DNA of 64,000 nt from Phycisphaerales bacterium (lineage in GTDB: Bacteria; Planctomycetota; Phycisphaerae; Phycisphaerales; SM1A02), in assembly GCA_029245245.1 (NCBI GenBank), contig JAQWPT010000011.1:62001-126000 (forward strand), in the 5' to 3' direction. Under the pieces are notes generated by a model. It did not search any database. It saw only the letters and a program-made list of their open reading frames with translations, and was not told where the DNA came from. A program made the translations under genes and the position numbers. Shown here piece by piece: positions 29,605 through 34,766 of this stretch. Position 1 is the first letter of the stretch; the number at the start of each line of letters is the position of its first letter.

Positions 29605-29698
29605 GGACTGTCACTTCGGCAGCGGATTGACGGTCGTGTCAGTCCGGCACCCTGGATGAGCCGGCCGGTTCCGTCGCATTCATGTCGTTCGGGGGATA

Positions 29699-29720
29699 CG
29701 AACATCCGTTCGCATGTTCG
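29699..29720. promoter_or_regulatory. palindromic site upstream of the Hsp20 cluster (GAAC-N4-GTTC and wider CGAACAT/ATGTTCG)
   Basis: CGAACATCCGTTCG (29699-29712) is a perfect palindrome of the GAAC-N4-GTTC type known for LexA of Gram-positive bacteria. It overlaps a second pair, CGAACAT / ATGTTCG (29699-29705 and 29714-29720). It lies about 70-90 bases before the sigma-54-type promoter at 29789, a distance suited to an activator. The regulator is unknown. Confidence 0.4.
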
Positions 29721-29788
29721 GCCTTGGCGGGTCCGCCAGGGCGGTCGTCACGTGTTTCTGCCGAACTTGAGCGGGGTCAGTTGGAAAG

Positions 29789-29805
29789 TTGGCACGCCGA
29801 TTGTG
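29789..29805 (+). promoter_or_regulatory. sigma-54-type promoter in front of the first Hsp20 gene
   Basis: TTGGCACG-CCGA-TTGTG matches the -24/-12 consensus TTGGCACG-N4-TTGCA except that the -12 GC reads GT. The spacing is exact. It is 87 bases upstream of the first Hsp20 start, so it would give an mRNA leader of about 75 bases. Confidence 0.65.
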
Positions 29806-29891
29806 ATGTCTTCTTCCGCAGCGACAACGCCGCATGACTCCGAGTGGTTCGGGGTCCGGCCCGTCGCAAGGCGAATCAAAGGAGATCTGCC

Positions 29892-30335
29892 ATGACTCTT
29901 CACACACAAATGGCACCGACCGCCACGATCGCCCGCGTCCAGAACCAGTTCGACCGCATCCTCGAAACGTCGATGAACACCGCCATGATGCCCGTCGCCA
30001 TGCCACAGCATGGTCCGATCATGCCGATGCTCAACATCTACGAGACTCAGGATCGCATCTTTGTCGAGGCCGAACTGCCGGGTGTCCCCCTGGATGACGT
30101 GGACGTCACCGTCGTCGGCAACCAGCTGACCATCACCGGACGTCGCACACTGCTGATTCCCGAGGAAGCCGCCATCGTCACAAAGGAACGTGGCTCCCTC
30201 AAGTTTCAGCGCACCGTGCTGCTTCCGGACATGGTCCGCGAAGAAGGTATCCGTGCTTCGATGCGAAAGGGCATCCTGACCGTCAGTCTGCCTCGCATGA
30301 ACACGATCGTCGATCGAGGATTCCCAATGGCCTGA
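29892..30335 (+). CDS. small heat-shock protein (Hsp20/alpha-crystallin family)
   Basis: This 147-residue protein has a variable N-terminal arm (about 1-45) followed by an alpha-crystallin domain. The domain runs from PMLNIYETQDRIFVEAELPGV through LDDVDVTVVGNQLTITGRR and FQRTVLLPDMV to the conserved GILTVSLPR (about 125-137). It is an ATP-independent holdase for unfolding proteins. AAAGGAG lies eight bases upstream of ATG 29892, and a sigma-54-type promoter is further upstream. It is the first of four Hsp20 genes; the next starts 51 bases after it without a terminator, so they are cotranscribed. Confidence 0.93.
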   Translation: MTLHTQMAPTATIARVQNQFDRILETSMNTAMMPVAMPQHGPIMPMLNIYETQDRIFVEAELPGVPLDDVDVTVVGNQLTITGRRTLLIPEEAAIVTKERGSLKFQRTVLLPDMVREEGIRASMRKGILTVSLPRMNTIVDRGFPMA

Positions 30336-30385
30336 GGCCCGAGGATCCGGATCAAGAGAAACTCTTCTACATAAGGAGCCATGTG

Positions 30386-31603
30386 ATGGCTATCAAAGTT
30401 CAAGTAAAAGGCGACCAGAAGTTCGACAACTCGTTTGCTGACAGCACATGCTGCAACGGCACTTACATCAACGACGCATACGGCGTGAACCCCTACACGA
30501 CCCCGACGCTTGACGGCACCTTCGGCGCACCCTTCATGGGCAGCCAGGTCCCAGCCAGCCTCGTGAGCCTGTACGGTAACAACGGGTTTCAGCCGGCCTT
30601 CACGGGCTTCAAGCCCTTCGTCGGCAACTACGCCACTCAGGCATCGTCCACCCCGTCCGTGACTCCATTCGCGGGCCAGGCACTCACGGGCCTCAATGGC
30701 TACGGCGTCAACCCCTTCACCTACGGCGTGAATCCCTTCACGGCCACATCCGTGAACCCCTTCACGGCTACCACGGTGAACGCATTCGGCCAGATCGTTC
30801 CTGCGATCAAGCCCGGATTCAACACCGCTGTCGCCGGGACCATGCCCTTCCAGGGTTGGACCACTCCCGCCACGCCGGAACTTCTTTCCGCCAACACTTC
30901 GTCGCTCAACGGCTTCGCAGTCCAGAACCCGGCCCTCGCATCCTTCTATGGGATGACCCCGGCCTGGTCCTCGATCAAGCCCGCCACCTTCGGTGGCTCG
31001 AGCGTCTCACCGTTCGCCTTCCAGGCTCAGCAGTACGCTGCCGCTTCCAACCTTCCTTGGATGAAGGCCCAGCAGGAAGCTGCCTGGGGCATCAACCCCA
31101 TGACCGGCGCCTGGACCGGCTCGATCGCTCCCACCGGCGTGATCGATCCGTCCACCACGCTCACCGCAGCGAGCACCACATCCACTCCCTGGACCAGCGG
31201 TCTCGCAATGAACCCCATGATGAGCCCCGTCGCTCAGCAGTCCACGATGACCACCTTCGTTCCCGTCGACATCTACGAGAACGAGGATGAGTACATCCTC
31301 CTGGCCGACATGCCAGGTGCTTCCATCGAGGATGTGGACATCCTGGTCGAAGGCCAGAGCCTCCTCATCAAGGGTCTCATCAAGCCGATGAACATGGACA
31401 AGGTCGGCATGGGCCTCAACACCGTGACCCTGCTTCAGGAGAAGCCCGCCATCAAGAACATCGAGCGGATCTTCCCACTGGGCAGCAACGTCCTGACCGA
31501 GAAACTCACCGCCAAGCTGATCGACGGCATTCTCACGATCAAGCTTCCCAAGGTGAAGGTCGGCTACGGCTCGACGCATCGCGTCGCGGTCGCAACCGCC
31601 TGA
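30386..31603 (+). CDS. long Hsp20 with a repeat-bearing N-terminal extension
   Basis: This 405-residue protein is far above the usual 130-170 for the family. Residues 1-290 are a low-complexity region rich in Asn, Pro, Phe, Thr, Ala and Gly. It includes a Cys-Cys motif (DSTCCNGTY, about 18-26) and five YGVNP(Y/F)T-type repeats. The last 115 residues are an alpha-crystallin domain: TFVPVDIYENEDEYILLADMPGA, EDVDILVEGQSLLIKG and DGILTIKLPKVKV. AAGGAGCC sits six bases before ATG 30386. Sequence bias suggests an intrinsically disordered, self-associating arm. Either a novel condensate or scaffold-forming Hsp20 or a fusion is possible. A strong terminator follows. Confidence 0.88.
   Translation: MAIKVQVKGDQKFDNSFADSTCCNGTYINDAYGVNPYTTPTLDGTFGAPFMGSQVPASLVSLYGNNGFQPAFTGFKPFVGNYATQASSTPSVTPFAGQALTGLNGYGVNPFTYGVNPFTATSVNPFTATTVNAFGQIVPAIKPGFNTAVAGTMPFQGWTTPATPELLSANTSSLNGFAVQNPALASFYGMTPAWSSIKPATFGGSSVSPFAFQAQQYAAASNLPWMKAQQEAAWGINPMTGAWTGSIAPTGVIDPSTTLTAASTTSTPWTSGLAMNPMMSPVAQQSTMTTFVPVDIYENEDEYILLADMPGASIEDVDILVEGQSLLIKGLIKPMNMDKVGMGLNTVTLLQEKPAIKNIERIFPLGSNVLTEKLTAKLIDGILTIKLPKVKVGYGSTHRVAVATA
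30701..30791 (+). repeat. in-frame repeat encoding GVNPFT units
   Basis: Four consecutive units (YGVNPFT, YGVNPFT, TSVNPFT, TTVNAFG) are encoded by near-identical 21-24-base segments built on GTGAACCCCTTCACG. A related YGVNPYT copy lies near 30477. The pattern indicates recent tandem duplication within the extension. Confidence 0.8.
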
Positions 31604-31635
31604 TACGCATCTGAGAACCATCTTCGTCGGATGAA

Positions 31636-31675
31636 GAGCCCCCCGGGTCCTGCAGACCCGGGGGGCTCGCTTTTT
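31636..31675 (+). terminator. strong intrinsic terminator between Hsp20 genes 2 and 3
   Basis: A perfect 14-bp stem (GAGCCCCCCGGGTC / GACCCGGGGGGCTC) with loop CTGCA is followed by GCTTTTTG. It ends the first two-gene Hsp20 transcript, which makes the second promoter at 31778 necessary. Confidence 0.92.
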
Positions 31676-31777
31676 GAATGACGTGCGCCCGACTGCCGAC
31701 CTGGCGATCGTCCTGCCAAGCTGGCAGCACGTGCCCCTCGCATGTCGCGTTCAATCGCAATGCCGGGGCGCATTGGA

Positions 31778-31794
31778 TTGGCACGGGCCTTGCA
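31778..31794 (+). promoter_or_regulatory. consensus sigma-54 promoter in front of the third Hsp20 gene
   Basis: TTGGCACG-GGCC-TTGCA is a perfect match to the -24/-12 consensus with correct spacing. It lies 83 bases upstream of ATG 31877 and about 100 bases after the terminator, and shares its -24 box and local context (TTGGA just upstream) with the site at 29789. Confidence 0.82.
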
Positions 31795-31876
31795 TCATGT
31801 CATGCAGCTCGGACATGCCGGGCGAATACAACACCAGAGCCGGGAACAGTCCGGCCAATCACAACGGAGGTTTGTC

Positions 31877-32326
31877 ATGAACACGCAAGCACTTCTCACA
31901 CCGAACAACGCAATGAACCGTGTCCGCTACGGCGTTGACCGACTCTTCGAGAGCATGGTTCCGTCCTTCGTCCGCAACATCGGGTTGTCTGATTCGACCC
32001 TGAGTGGACCGGCACTGAACGTCATCGAAGACGACAATCGCCTGTACGTCGAAGCCGAACTCCCCGGCGTGGCGCTCAGCGATATCGAGATCACCGTGGC
32101 CGACAACACCCTGACGATCAGCGGATCTCGCACCCTGTCCAGCCTGGAAGATGCGAACGCCCTTCGCCAGGAACGAGGCGACTTCGTCTTCGAGCGATCA
32201 GTGACCCTCTCGACGCAGGTCGAGGTCGATGCTGTCGAAGCACGGATGACCAACGGCGTCCTGCGGGTCACCCTTCCCAAGGTGATCGAAAGCCGCACGC
32301 GTCGCATCGCCGTGACTCAGGACTGA
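31877..32326 (+). CDS. small heat-shock protein (Hsp20 family)
   Basis: This 149-residue protein has a short arm with RVRYGVDRLFESMVPSF. The alpha-crystallin domain follows (PALNVIEDDNRLYVEAELPGV, LSDIEITVADNTLTISGSR, GDFVFERSVTLSTQV, NGVLRVTLPKV; about 45-140), and the tail is basic. Length and layout are standard for a bacterial class A/B Hsp20. GGAGG lies seven bases upstream of the ATG. It is most like the first gene of the cluster and is the first gene of the second sigma-54-promoted unit; the next Hsp20 starts 51 bases downstream. Confidence 0.94.
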   Translation: MNTQALLTPNNAMNRVRYGVDRLFESMVPSFVRNIGLSDSTLSGPALNVIEDDNRLYVEAELPGVALSDIEITVADNTLTISGSRTLSSLEDANALRQERGDFVFERSVTLSTQVEVDAVEARMTNGVLRVTLPKVIESRTRRIAVTQD

Positions 32327-32377
32327 GCGGGCACCTTCCAGGTGAAGGCCCCCCGCATTGAATCAAGGAGCAAGACA

Positions 32378-32800
32378 ATGACTACATTCACCACCAACAA
32401 CGAACTGCATACGGACAACTCCACGGCCTGCTGCCAGGCTCGGGGAAACCAGTACCTCGCCAAGAATCCGCATACGTACCGGGCACCAGTTGACGTCTAC
32501 GAGGCCAAAGATCGATTCATCGTGCTCGCAGACATGCCTGGAACAACGCCGGACGGCATTGAGATCACCGTCGATGGCAACATGCTTGAGATGACTGGCA
32601 CGGTTCTGGATCGATATGAGCAGCTCGGCAACACCTCACGACAGGAATACGGACTCGGAGACTTCCACCGACACTTCAGAGTCGGATCCGGAATCGCCAC
32701 CGAAGACATCACCGCGACGTATCGCGACGGAATCCTGACTGTGAGCCTGCCCAAGCAGCCAACGATCCAGCCACGCAAGGTACAGGTCATGGAGAACTGA
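32378..32800 (+). CDS. small heat-shock protein (Hsp20 family) with N-terminal Cys-Cys motif
   Basis: This 140-residue protein has the arm segment DNSTACCQARGNQY (about 12-25), which resembles DSTCCNGTY of the long Hsp20. Its alpha-crystallin domain follows: APVDVYEAKDRFIVLADMPGT, DGIEITVDGNMLEMTGTV, FHRHFRVGSGIATED and DGILTVSLPKQ. AAGGAGCAAG precedes ATG 32378. There is no promoter-like site in the 51-base gap, so it is cotranscribed with the third gene. The shared Cys-Cys motif links genes 2 and 4, suggesting each transcript makes one standard and one Cys-Cys form. Confidence 0.93.
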   Translation: MTTFTTNNELHTDNSTACCQARGNQYLAKNPHTYRAPVDVYEAKDRFIVLADMPGTTPDGIEITVDGNMLEMTGTVLDRYEQLGNTSRQEYGLGDFHRHFRVGSGIATEDITATYRDGILTVSLPKQPTIQPRKVQVMEN

Positions 32801-32878
32801 TCCATACGATCTGTTCCCGATCAGGCCGCCATGAATGGTGGGACGGTCTGATCTCCCGGCCTGCTGACCACCCTCCGG

Positions 32879-32906
32879 CACGGAACCCGCACCCGCGGGT
32901 TCCGTG
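32879..32906 (+). terminator. hairpin closing the Hsp20 cluster
   Basis: A perfect 12-bp stem (CACGGAACCCGC / GCGGGTTCCGTG) with a four-base loop stands 78 bases after the last Hsp20 stop. The following sequence TCGTTGTAATT is only weakly T-rich. Confidence 0.65.
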
Positions 32907-33004
32907 TCGTTGTAATTCGGATCCGCTGGAACCATGACAGGCAGGATCGATGGTCGTATCCTGTCGCCTGGCCATCTCGCCCACAACCACAGGAGCGCAA
33001 TCGA

Positions 33005-33589
33005 ATGAGCACAACAGATGCCTCGATCCCGGACCTTCGCCAGATCATGCGTGAGCACCGCGGCCTGTTCCTGGCGGAGGGAATCATCTTCCTGATCCTC
33101 GGGTGCGCCGCCGTGGTGTTTGCGATTTTCGCGACGTACATCCTGGCCAACTTCATCGGCTGGATGTCGCTGGTCGTGGGCGTCCTGCTGTTCATCCGCG
33201 GTGTCGGTCTCTCAAGCACCGACGATCGCGGTTCGATCATCCTGACCGGAATCATGTTCGCAATACTCGGTGTGGTGGTCATCTCGTGGCCATGGGCGGC
33301 CATGGAGGGGCTGACGCTGTTCATGGCCGCGTTCTGCATCCTGCGTGGAGTCATGGACGTGGTGGGCCTGCCGCATCGATCCTCGTCGACCGCGGGTCTG
33401 CAGGTCTTCAGCGGGCTCTGCGGAATCGCATTGGGAATCCTGCTGCTGCTCTGGTTTCCATACGATGCCGCGTGGGCACCGGGGCTGCTCTTCGGAATTC
33501 AGTTGTTCTTCCTCGGAATGGGAACGCTCGCCATCTGGAATGCGCTGGACCACCCCGAGGTGTCTGGTATTCCCGAAGACCGGGCCTGA
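33005..33589 (+). CDS. HdeD-family (DUF308) membrane protein
   Basis: This 194-residue protein has six transmembrane helices in three hairpins. It has the family start REHRGLFLAEGIIFLILGCAAVVF and repeated Gly-rich helices (GWMSLVVGVLLFIRGV, GLTLFMAAFCILRGVMDVVGL, GLCGIALGILLLLWFP). HdeD is a membrane protein of acid-stress resistance in enterobacteria and is widespread elsewhere without assigned function. CACAGGAG lies eight bases upstream of ATG 33005. Its position after the Hsp20 genes fits a stress-related neighbourhood, but a hairpin separates it from them. Confidence 0.88.
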   Translation: MSTTDASIPDLRQIMREHRGLFLAEGIIFLILGCAAVVFAIFATYILANFIGWMSLVVGVLLFIRGVGLSSTDDRGSIILTGIMFAILGVVVISWPWAAMEGLTLFMAAFCILRGVMDVVGLPHRSSSTAGLQVFSGLCGIALGILLLLWFPYDAAWAPGLLFGIQLFFLGMGTLAIWNALDHPEVSGIPEDRA

Positions 33590-33598
33590 CACCGTTTG

Positions 33599-34450
33599 TC
33601 AGCTGGCCTGGCGGACCAGGTCGGGAAGCCGGCAGGTCTTGAAGCCTCGCTGCAGTTTTCCAATGGCCTGGTGCTCGATCTGCCGCACTCGTTCCCGCGT
33701 GATCCCGAGTTGCTGGCCGATCTCCTTGAGCGTCTTCGGTGTACTGCCATCGAGGCCGAACCGCATTCGCAGGATGTCGGTGGTGGTGGGGTCGAAATGC
33801 CGGAGCAGTTGGCGGACCTTCTGAATGTCATCAAGGTGTTCAGCCGAACTGGCATCGGCCTTGGTGTCCGGGCAGTTGTCCAGGGGGTGTGATCGGCCAT
33901 GCTCCTCGGAAGCGCTGGTGGTGACGGAGCGTTCAACCGCCGCCATTGTTCGCTGAATGAGATCGAGCTTGCTGCGTGGGACCTCCATGGCCTTGGCCAG
34001 TTCAGCCCGGGTCGGACAGCGTCCCAACTGGTCCTCCAGTTCACTGTGAATCCGCTTCCAGTTGGACATGCGCTGCAGCATGTAGGCCGGGATATGCATT
34101 GGCTGCCGGCCATTCATGATCTTTCGTTTGATCGTCTTCTTGACCCACCACGTGGCGTAGGTCGAGAACCTGTTCCCGTAGGCGGGGTCGAATCGTTCCA
34201 CGGCGCGGATCAAGCCGAGGTTTCCCTCGTTGATCAGTTCCAGCAACGGGATGCCGCTGCGGGCGAACTGCTTGCTGATGCTCACGACCAGGCGGAGATT
34301 CGCCCTGATCATGTGGTTCTTGGATTCCTCGCATTGCTCGTTGATGATGTCCCAGGCGAGCGTCTTTTCCTCTTCCGGTGTCAGGAGCGATACGGCACTG
34401 ATCTGCTCAAGATAGAGTTCCAGGTCGTTGCGGAAGCGTGTCTGCGTCAT
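33599..34450 (-). CDS. group-2-like sigma-70 factor (RpoD/RpoS-related)
   Basis: This 283-residue protein has region 1.2 (LYLEQISAVSLLTPEEE). Region 2 is complete (RANLRLVVSISKQFARSGIPLLELI through RFSTYATWWVKKTIKR, about 47-112). Region 3 (QLGRCPTRAELAKAM) and a region 4 helix-turn-helix (TLKEIGQQLGITRERVRQIEHQAIGKL, about 240-266) complete it. It lacks the long region 1.1 of the primary sigma factor, so it is likely an alternative general-stress or stationary-phase sigma. ATG 34450 is where the conserved sequence begins. It is convergent with hdeD. Confidence 0.92.
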   Translation of the reverse strand: MTQTRFRNDLELYLEQISAVSLLTPEEEKTLAWDIINEQCEESKNHMIRANLRLVVSISKQFARSGIPLLELINEGNLGLIRAVERFDPAYGNRFSTYATWWVKKTIKRKIMNGRQPMHIPAYMLQRMSNWKRIHSELEDQLGRCPTRAELAKAMEVPRSKLDLIQRTMAAVERSVTTSASEEHGRSHPLDNCPDTKADASSAEHLDDIQKVRQLLRHFDPTTTDILRMRFGLDGSTPKTLKEIGQQLGITRERVRQIEHQAIGKLQRGFKTCRLPDLVRQAS

Positions 34451-34766
34451 GAGAGTGTCCCGGATCAGCGCGCAACAGCCCGGCAGTGCACTGCGGCATG
34501 CAAAGCACACCGTGCTGTTGGCGATCAGGAGTGGATGGAATCTGTCGGGCCGCGCACACGGCCCGTGGCAAGAGAGATGAAAGCCGTCTCGGTCAGCCGT
34601 GGTTCCCCCCGGAGTACGACTGATCGATGAACTTCACCACTGCTACGGTGGGGGCGGGTTCCGGTTCGGCATGAAATGCCGGATTCCTGTTTCACCTCCC
34701 TGATGGGCGGTTCTACCGGCATTCAGGAAGGCTGGATTCAACCCGGATTGAAGCGTTGGGCCGCGG
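34451..34766. other. 316-base intergenic region
   Basis: No gene is seen between the ClC gene and the sigma gene (both minus strand). It contains one 7-bp inverted repeat (CGGGCCG 34546-34552 / CGGCCCG 34559-34565), possibly a terminator after ClC. The sigma promoter should lie here. Confidence 0.6.

Follow-up and report, generated by a model that had tools for sequence, protein, structure and literature searches.

Putative sigma-54 promoters and a shared upstream palindrome at the hsp20 operons and other chaperone genes of Phycisphaerales

The hsp20 locus

The stretch of DNA analysed here (64,000 nucleotides from an uncultured planctomycete of the Phycisphaerales; "the window") holds four tandem plus-strand genes in two operons. 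All four match the Hsp20 family (alpha-crystallin domain, PF00011) above its cut-off, as an earlier note made from the sequence alone had proposed, and a search of the whole 2.69-Mb genome finds no other Hsp20 gene. The first operon consists of hspA (29892-30335; 147 aa; PF00011 2.1e-15) and hspB (30386-31603; 405 aa; 3.6e-9), the second of hspC (31877-32326; 149 aa; 7.8e-19; 77-78% identical in congeners) and hspD (32378-32800; 140 aa; 6e-17). The description of each pair as a standard Hsp20 followed by a variant one holds for hspB, whose alpha-crystallin domain (residues 295-393) lies behind an N-terminal extension of ~290 aa, but not for hspD, which is of ordinary length for an Hsp20; an N-terminal DNS-A-CC motif is common to hspD and hspB. 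Between the operons lies the intrinsic terminator that had been read there (31636-31668, plus strand): a 14-bp stem with a 5-nt loop, followed by GCTTTTTG, in a 66-nt stretch that folds at -39.1 kcal/mol (z -5.5). No Rfam family, ROSE and RNA thermosensors included, matches between 28.5 and 35.0 kb of the window. A gene for a group-2-like sigma factor (33599-34510, minus strand; score 144 against an RpoH cut-off of 323) lies 0.8 kb downstream of the operons.

Sigma-54 boxes

A -24/-12 box of the sigma-54 type precedes each operon on the plus strand, where the earlier note had placed it. Judged by GG at -24 and GC at -12 in TGGCACG-N4-TTGC, the operon 2 box (31778-31794; TTGGCACGGGCCTTGCA, that is, TTGGCACG-GGCC-TTGCA; 82 nt from the hspC ATG) is a perfect match, and the operon 1 box (29789-29805; TTGGCACGCCGATTGTG, that is, TTGGCACG-CCGA-TTGTG; 86 nt from the hspA ATG) departs from it by GC to GT at -12. 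A lone box proves nothing, because single matches are not enriched genome-wide: TGGCACGN4TTGC with at most one mismatch occurs 60 times, against 71 for the reversed control. For two boxes in the right place and on the right strand before the sole two hsp20 operons, the chance estimated from the genome-wide rate is ~(1.5e-3)^2, and both congeners (G001 and G002) keep both boxes, down to the GT variant of operon 1. This conservation and the controls lead us to reject chance matching, the missing genome-wide enrichment notwithstanding.

Fortuitous boxes are the premise of one competing account, in which the operons use a sigma-70-type promoter, perhaps through the sigma factor encoded at 33599-34510 (minus strand). 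The adjacency of that gene and the failure of the box pattern to exceed its reversed control speak for such an arrangement, but no sigma-70-like site was found upstream of either operon, and conservation, along with the shuffles, phasing and cross-phylum scan described below, makes it extremely unlikely. The boxes support sigma-54 control of both hsp20 operons. The grounds on which the earlier note considered its proposal refutable failed where they could be tested, since rpoN is present in the genome (PF00309 9e-15, 518-aa frame) and the boxes are kept in relatives both near and remote.

A palindrome upstream of the boxes

A de novo motif search upstream of the boxes yielded the palindrome CTGCCA-N3-TGGCAG. 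(A technical note: palindrome-constrained EM at even width returned only weak GC-rich motifs; it is the unconstrained model that finds this odd-spaced dyad.) With at most two mismatches it occurs at 67 of 75 chaperone promoters, against 1 of 225 for permuted palindromes. Its distance upstream of the box varies from 28 to 195 bp while the helical phase is fixed (period 10.5 bp, R = 0.63; none of 5000 random sets matches this), and tandem copies ~20-28 bp apart occur. Such phasing leads one to expect an enhancer-binding activator; as far as sequence can tell, these promoters have the upstream enhancer on a fixed helix face that is looked for at sigma-54 promoters.

Operon 2 has the only perfect copy in the window (31713-31727, plus strand; CTGCCAAGCTGGCAG), a putative enhancer (UAS) 51 bp from the box and conserved in G001 and G002; a second, weaker copy (31693-31707, plus strand; CTGCCGACCTGGCGA), kept in G001, lies 20 bp (about two turns) further upstream. 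The putative UAS of the hspA-hspB operon (29608-29622, plus strand; CTGTCACTTCGGCAG) has two mismatches and stands 167 bp from its box, in a block that is perfectly conserved in G002 and present in G001. A different palindromic element was also considered as the enhancer of this operon: CGAACAT-N8-ATGTTCG at 29699 (29699-29720, plus strand; CGAACATCCGTTCGCATGTTCG), which contains CGAAC-N4-GTTCG and so resembles a Gram-positive LexA box. It occurs once in the window and has no counterpart at the other promoters; it is a conserved element in its own right (in G002 its 29-nt block is unchanged; CGAACATCCGTTCG in G001; CGAACATNNGTTCG in G006).

Might CTGCCA-N3-TGGCAG instead be the operator of an unknown repressor, an analogue of CIRCE or HAIR, with a separate activator serving the boxes? 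A perfect dyad in front of a heat-shock gene is typically a repressor site, and HrcA is absent. Repressor operators normally overlap the promoter, however, whereas the variable distance of 28-195 bp at fixed helical phase is the habit of an enhancer and the tandem copies also weigh against an operator; we regard this alternative as unlikely.

A chaperone regulon in Phycisphaerales

Sigma-54-type boxes are not confined to hsp20. Scanned with at most one mismatch to TGGYACGN4TTGCW, 12 of 30 genomes have a box at clpB (mean of 200 shuffles, 0.03) and 14 of 30 at dnaK (0.03), as does the best hsp20 of 10 of 26 genomes (0.05); groEL, allowed two mismatches, has one in 20 of 30 (2.2). None of the 200 shuffles reaches any of these counts. 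In several genomes dnaK or groEL lacks a good box; across the order, boxes also precede clpC and tandem hsp20 genes, again well in excess of shuffled controls. All 75 chaperone promoters have GG, which their selection demands, and all have G at -12, followed by C in 61. In the genome at hand, palindrome and box occur together at both hsp20 operons, clpB, clpC, dnaK and groEL1, and likewise at a receiver-groES-x-groEL2 operon. The hrcA gene that HrcA/CIRCE control would call for was found in none of 41 genomes, by a search whose control was positive in 7 of 14.

The candidate activator

The earlier note reasoned that RpoN control would call for an enhancer-binding activator; to the putative enhancer a candidate regulator can now be added. 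It is an orphan NtrC-type response regulator (G000:C10:27802-29178), with the receiver (PF00072 1.7e-22), AAA+ domain with GAFTGA (PF00158 4e-68) and Fis-type HTH (PF02954 2.2e-15; GERTLYRKLKEYGLK) of an NtrC-type enhancer-binding protein. All 41 genomes have a match: in 39 it is 55-95% identical, and in G015 and G021 it is partial or weaker. Asp61 and Lys112 of the receiver, the GAFTGA motif and the HTH residues are invariant in 29 sequences. No kinase gene linked to it was found.

The genome encodes one other sigma-54 activator, the flagellar NtrC-type regulator G000:C6:193377, which adjoins a histidine kinase and fliF. Since it is the sole competitor, and flgK also has a sigma-54-type box, one could suppose that it, or several activators in turn, serves genuine sigma-54 promoters at the chaperone genes. 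Against this, the palindrome is missing from flagellar sigma-54 promoters, and four relatives without the flagellar regulator (G003, G007, G018 and G019), whose sole sigma-54 activator is the orthologue of the candidate, retain boxes at clpB, dnaK, groEL or clpC; the supposition is very unlikely. (In two of these, G007 and G018, the clpB and dnaK palindromes are degenerate, with 3-4 mismatches, beside perfect or near-perfect boxes.) The orphan regulator is the likely activator of the chaperone promoters.

The hsp20 operons, then, very probably belong to a sigma-54 heat-shock regulon run by a dedicated NtrC-type activator at the palindrome. Sigma-54 RNA polymerase would wait on the -24/-12 boxes; protein damage or heat stress would, by way of an unlinked kinase, activate the regulator, which would bind CTGCCA-N3-TGGCAG upstream; a DNA loop, the enhancer held on a fixed helix face, would then allow the hsp20, clpB, clpC, dnaK and groEL promoters to be opened together. 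The regulator would fill the role taken elsewhere by sigma-32 or HrcA/CIRCE. Because core heat-shock genes share this control, the signal is most likely proteotoxic or heat stress. In R. baltica the rpoN transcript is unchanged on heat shock (PMC2754498), a result that has no bearing on control through an activator, yet gives it no support either.

Relation to known systems

The candidate shares its architecture (receiver, AAA+ with GAFTGA, Fis HTH) with AtoC, NtrC, PrsR (PEP-CTERM) and ZraR and falls well short of the NCBIfam cut-off for each (400 of 714, 393 of 559, 379 of 503 and 353 of 760 bits, respectively); its closest solved structure, 4l4u, is of the NtrC family, but it forms its own order-wide orthologue group. 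To our knowledge, the palindrome is unlike the NtrC site. Another parallel is Myxococcus xanthus HsfA/HsfB, in which an NtrC-like response regulator is linked to the heat-shock gene lonD, but that system has one protease gene and a kinase partner. A sigma-54 promoter at a small heat-shock gene, as at the hsp20 operons, has been described before, but for one gene with an adjoining sigma-32 promoter; here core heat-shock genes share a putative enhancer and HrcA is missing.

Most of what is known of heat-shock control concerns sigma-32, HrcA, CtsR, HspR or RNA thermometers. HrcA/CIRCE, HspR/HAIR, CtsR and ROSE likewise use a conserved palindrome or element to coordinate chaperone genes, but they repress or act on RNA, and neither hrcA nor an Rfam match such as ROSE was found here. 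How, then, do planctomycetes lacking HrcA run a heat-shock response? A sigma-54 switch over dnaK, groEL, clpB and hsp20, driven by an ATPase activator and silent until activated, would, if true, be an answer, and would put the most conserved stress response of bacteria under a different logic; experimenters are offered a defined putative enhancer and a single candidate regulator.

Prediction of sigma-54 regulons in Planctomycetota and Bacteroidota by Carrera-Reyna et al. 2025 (PMC12316311) has, according to the available excerpts, already pointed to enrichment of sigma-54 promoters at chaperone COGs (GroEL, IbpA, GroES, GrpE, DnaJ, DnaK) and likewise at proteases including COG0542, with a weaker signal in Phycisphaerae. 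The same excerpts contain no enhancer sequence, assigned activator, HrcA absence or helical phasing, and do not link Gemmatimonadota or Leptospiraceae. Where they call grpE/groES of B. thetaiotaomicron sigma-54-dependent, they cite a Blattabacterium genome paper, so no experiment is evident behind that statement in these excerpts. Our literature search found nothing relevant on the palindrome or on a sigma-54 heat-shock link in Gemmatimonadota. Sigma-54 enrichment at chaperone genes had been predicted earlier; the enhancer, the architecture and the activator appear to be new.

Distribution beyond Phycisphaerales

Exact matching of palindrome and box together across 84,980 species gave 46 loci, 29 of them upstream of dnaK, groESL, clpB, hsp20 or htpG, and 21 of these 29 outside Phycisphaerales; no activator gene was found beside the chaperone genes at the scan loci. 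It seems probable that the arrangement represents an ancient class of heat-shock control, in which the core chaperones would be driven by sigma-54 RNA polymerase with a single dedicated, phospho-regulated enhancer-binding protein at CTGCCA-N3-TGGCAG, in place of sigma-32 and HrcA, common to Planctomycetota, Gemmatimonadota, some Bacteroidota and Leptospiraceae. In these four groups 29 of 30 loci are chaperone-linked, against 0 of 16 elsewhere: all 14 in Gemmatimonadota, all 3 in Bacteroidota, the single one in Leptospiraceae, and all 3 in Planctomycetota other than Phycisphaerales.

Promoters of the hsp20 operons

The four Hsp20 genes of the window (C6:62001-126000 of a 2.69-Mb Phycisphaerales genome in 38 contigs) are the full set: none is found elsewhere in the genome. 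They form two operons, hspA-hspB and hspC-hspD, and the σ54-type boxes that an earlier note had placed before them (box A, 29789-29805, and 31778-31794) are indeed there; the terminator reported between the operons is real, and the congeners share the two boxes, down to the GC-to-GT deviation of box A. TGGCACG-N4-TTGC with at most one mismatch is matched 60 times genome-wide vs. 71 times for the reversed control, and, judged on pattern alone, the hsp20 boxes could be due to chance. They were therefore tested by position and conservation.

In the alignment of the operon 1 promoter, two palindromes (at 29608 and 29699), the box, and the leader, ribosome-binding site included, stand out as strong islands. 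The second palindromic element (CGAACATCCGTTCGCATGTTCG, 29699-29720, between the putative enhancer and the box) is kept in two congeners and another genus; it contains CGAAC-N4-GTTCG, resembling the Gram-positive LexA (SOS) box, and is possibly a second input (DNA damage?) to hspA-hspB.

Boxes at other chaperone genes

The genome's second perfect box lies 53 nt 5' of clpB, a perfect TGGTACG-type box precedes clpC, and dnaK and groEL1 have TGGCATGATGATTGCA and TGGCGCGTGGTTTGAT, respectively. In a set of 41 Phycisphaerales genomes, boxes with at most one mismatch precede clpB in 12/30 genomes, dnaK in 14/30 and the best hsp20 of each genome in 10/26 (shuffle means 0.03 to 0.05); at two mismatches or fewer, groEL has them in 20/30 (shuffle mean 2.2). 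In other genera, tandem hsp20 pairs are again found behind a single such box. A second groEL belongs to an operon of a small receiver protein, groES, a short ORF and groEL (L020, G000:C5:100490-103321) that stands behind a σ54 box and the palindrome of the next section; L207 and L312 are further operons of this kind, and the arrangement extends to Planctomycetota outside the Phycisphaerales. The L020 receiver retains the acceptor-Asp region, its acidic pocket is seemingly absent, and it may act as a feedback partner to the activator described below.

A phased palindrome

For 70 boxes, 170 bp of upstream sequence was searched for motifs by EM; a model without dyad constraint returned CTGCCA-N3-TGGCAG. 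Of 75 promoters, 67 carry it with at most two mismatches, a match reached by permuted palindromes in 1 of 225 trials; flagellar σ54 promoters lack it. Its distances to the box, which played no part in choosing the sites, cluster at 28-30, 38-41, 49-52, 59-61, 69-72, 79-83, 89-94, 100-107, 113-117 and 124-125 bp, with a period that is strongest at 10.5 bp (47 distinct gene/distance values give R = 0.63), an R matched by 0/5000 random sets. Such phasing is the signature of a protein that has to contact the polymerase from a single side of the double helix.

Because relatives are not independent samples, this phasing and a cross-phylum scan weigh most. Exact CTGCCA-N3-TGGCAG, a 31-61 bp gap and GGCRCG-N4-TTGC were sought in 84,980 species (one genome each; matches placed taxonomically by record titles). 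At 29 of the 46 loci a chaperone gene follows directly: all 14 in Gemmatimonadota (dnaK, groESL or hsp20), all 3 in Bacteroidota (dnaK), one in Leptospiraceae (hsp20), three in non-Phycisphaerales Planctomycetota (htpG, clpB and a receiver-groES-groEL operon) and 8 in Phycisphaerales (clpB or hsp20). The motif had been discovered in the last of these groups; the other 21 chaperone loci come from elsewhere. One further Phycisphaerae match and the 16 in all other groups have no chaperone gene and show the scan's background. The hsp20 promoter of a Longimicrobiales genome (L324) has two perfect tandem copies of the palindrome.

The candidate activator

σ54 polymerase cannot start transcription without an activator. 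The genome encodes two true ones. The first, with its kinase, adjoins fliF and is flagellar; the second (G000:C10:27802-29178) is an orphan response regulator (receiver, AAA+/GAFTGA, Fis HTH) with orthologues at 55-95% identity in 39 of 41 genomes (40 relatives and its own), the best matches in G015 and G021 being weaker or partial. An alignment of 29 sequences shows no variation in its phospho-acceptor, GAFTGA or recognition helix. Four genomes (G003, G007, G018, G019) have its orthologue as their single σ54 activator, together with boxes at dnaK (all four), clpB (G007, G018, G019), groEL (G003, G018) and clpC (G018, G019); given the requirement for an activator, the lone protein would have to serve these promoters, if they are used. 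Its presumed target is the palindrome, with good or fair copies in G003 and G019 but degenerate ones 5' of clpB and dnaK in G007 and G018. The target genes suggest a heat or proteotoxic signal. HrcA is found in 0/41 genomes by a search positive in 7/14 reference genomes.

Relation to published work

σ54 promoters at heat-shock genes are already foreseen: a 2025 survey predicts that they are enriched at the chaperone genes of Planctomycetota and Bacteroidota, to a lesser degree in those of Phycisphaerae (PMC12316311), and E. coli ibpB has one (cited in PMC8155344). In R. baltica, heat induces ClpB, Hsp20, DnaK and GroEL, with the control cascade left unresolved (PMC2754498). In the open-access literature searched, neither the palindrome and its phasing nor a dedicated activator is described, and this predicted architecture appears to be new.

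Surroundings of the cluster

HspB (30386-31603) has an N-terminal extension of ~290 aa with many NPF/Thr repeats; in G001, a congener, hspA has been deleted, leaving hspB as the first gene after the same promoter. A terminator-like hairpin (32876-32909) separates hspD from the gene immediately 3' of it, for a DUF308 membrane protein (33005-33589). Also adjoining the cluster, on the minus strand, is a group-2-like σ70 factor of 303 aa (33599-34510), scoring under the cut-offs of the RpoS, RpoD and RpoH models.
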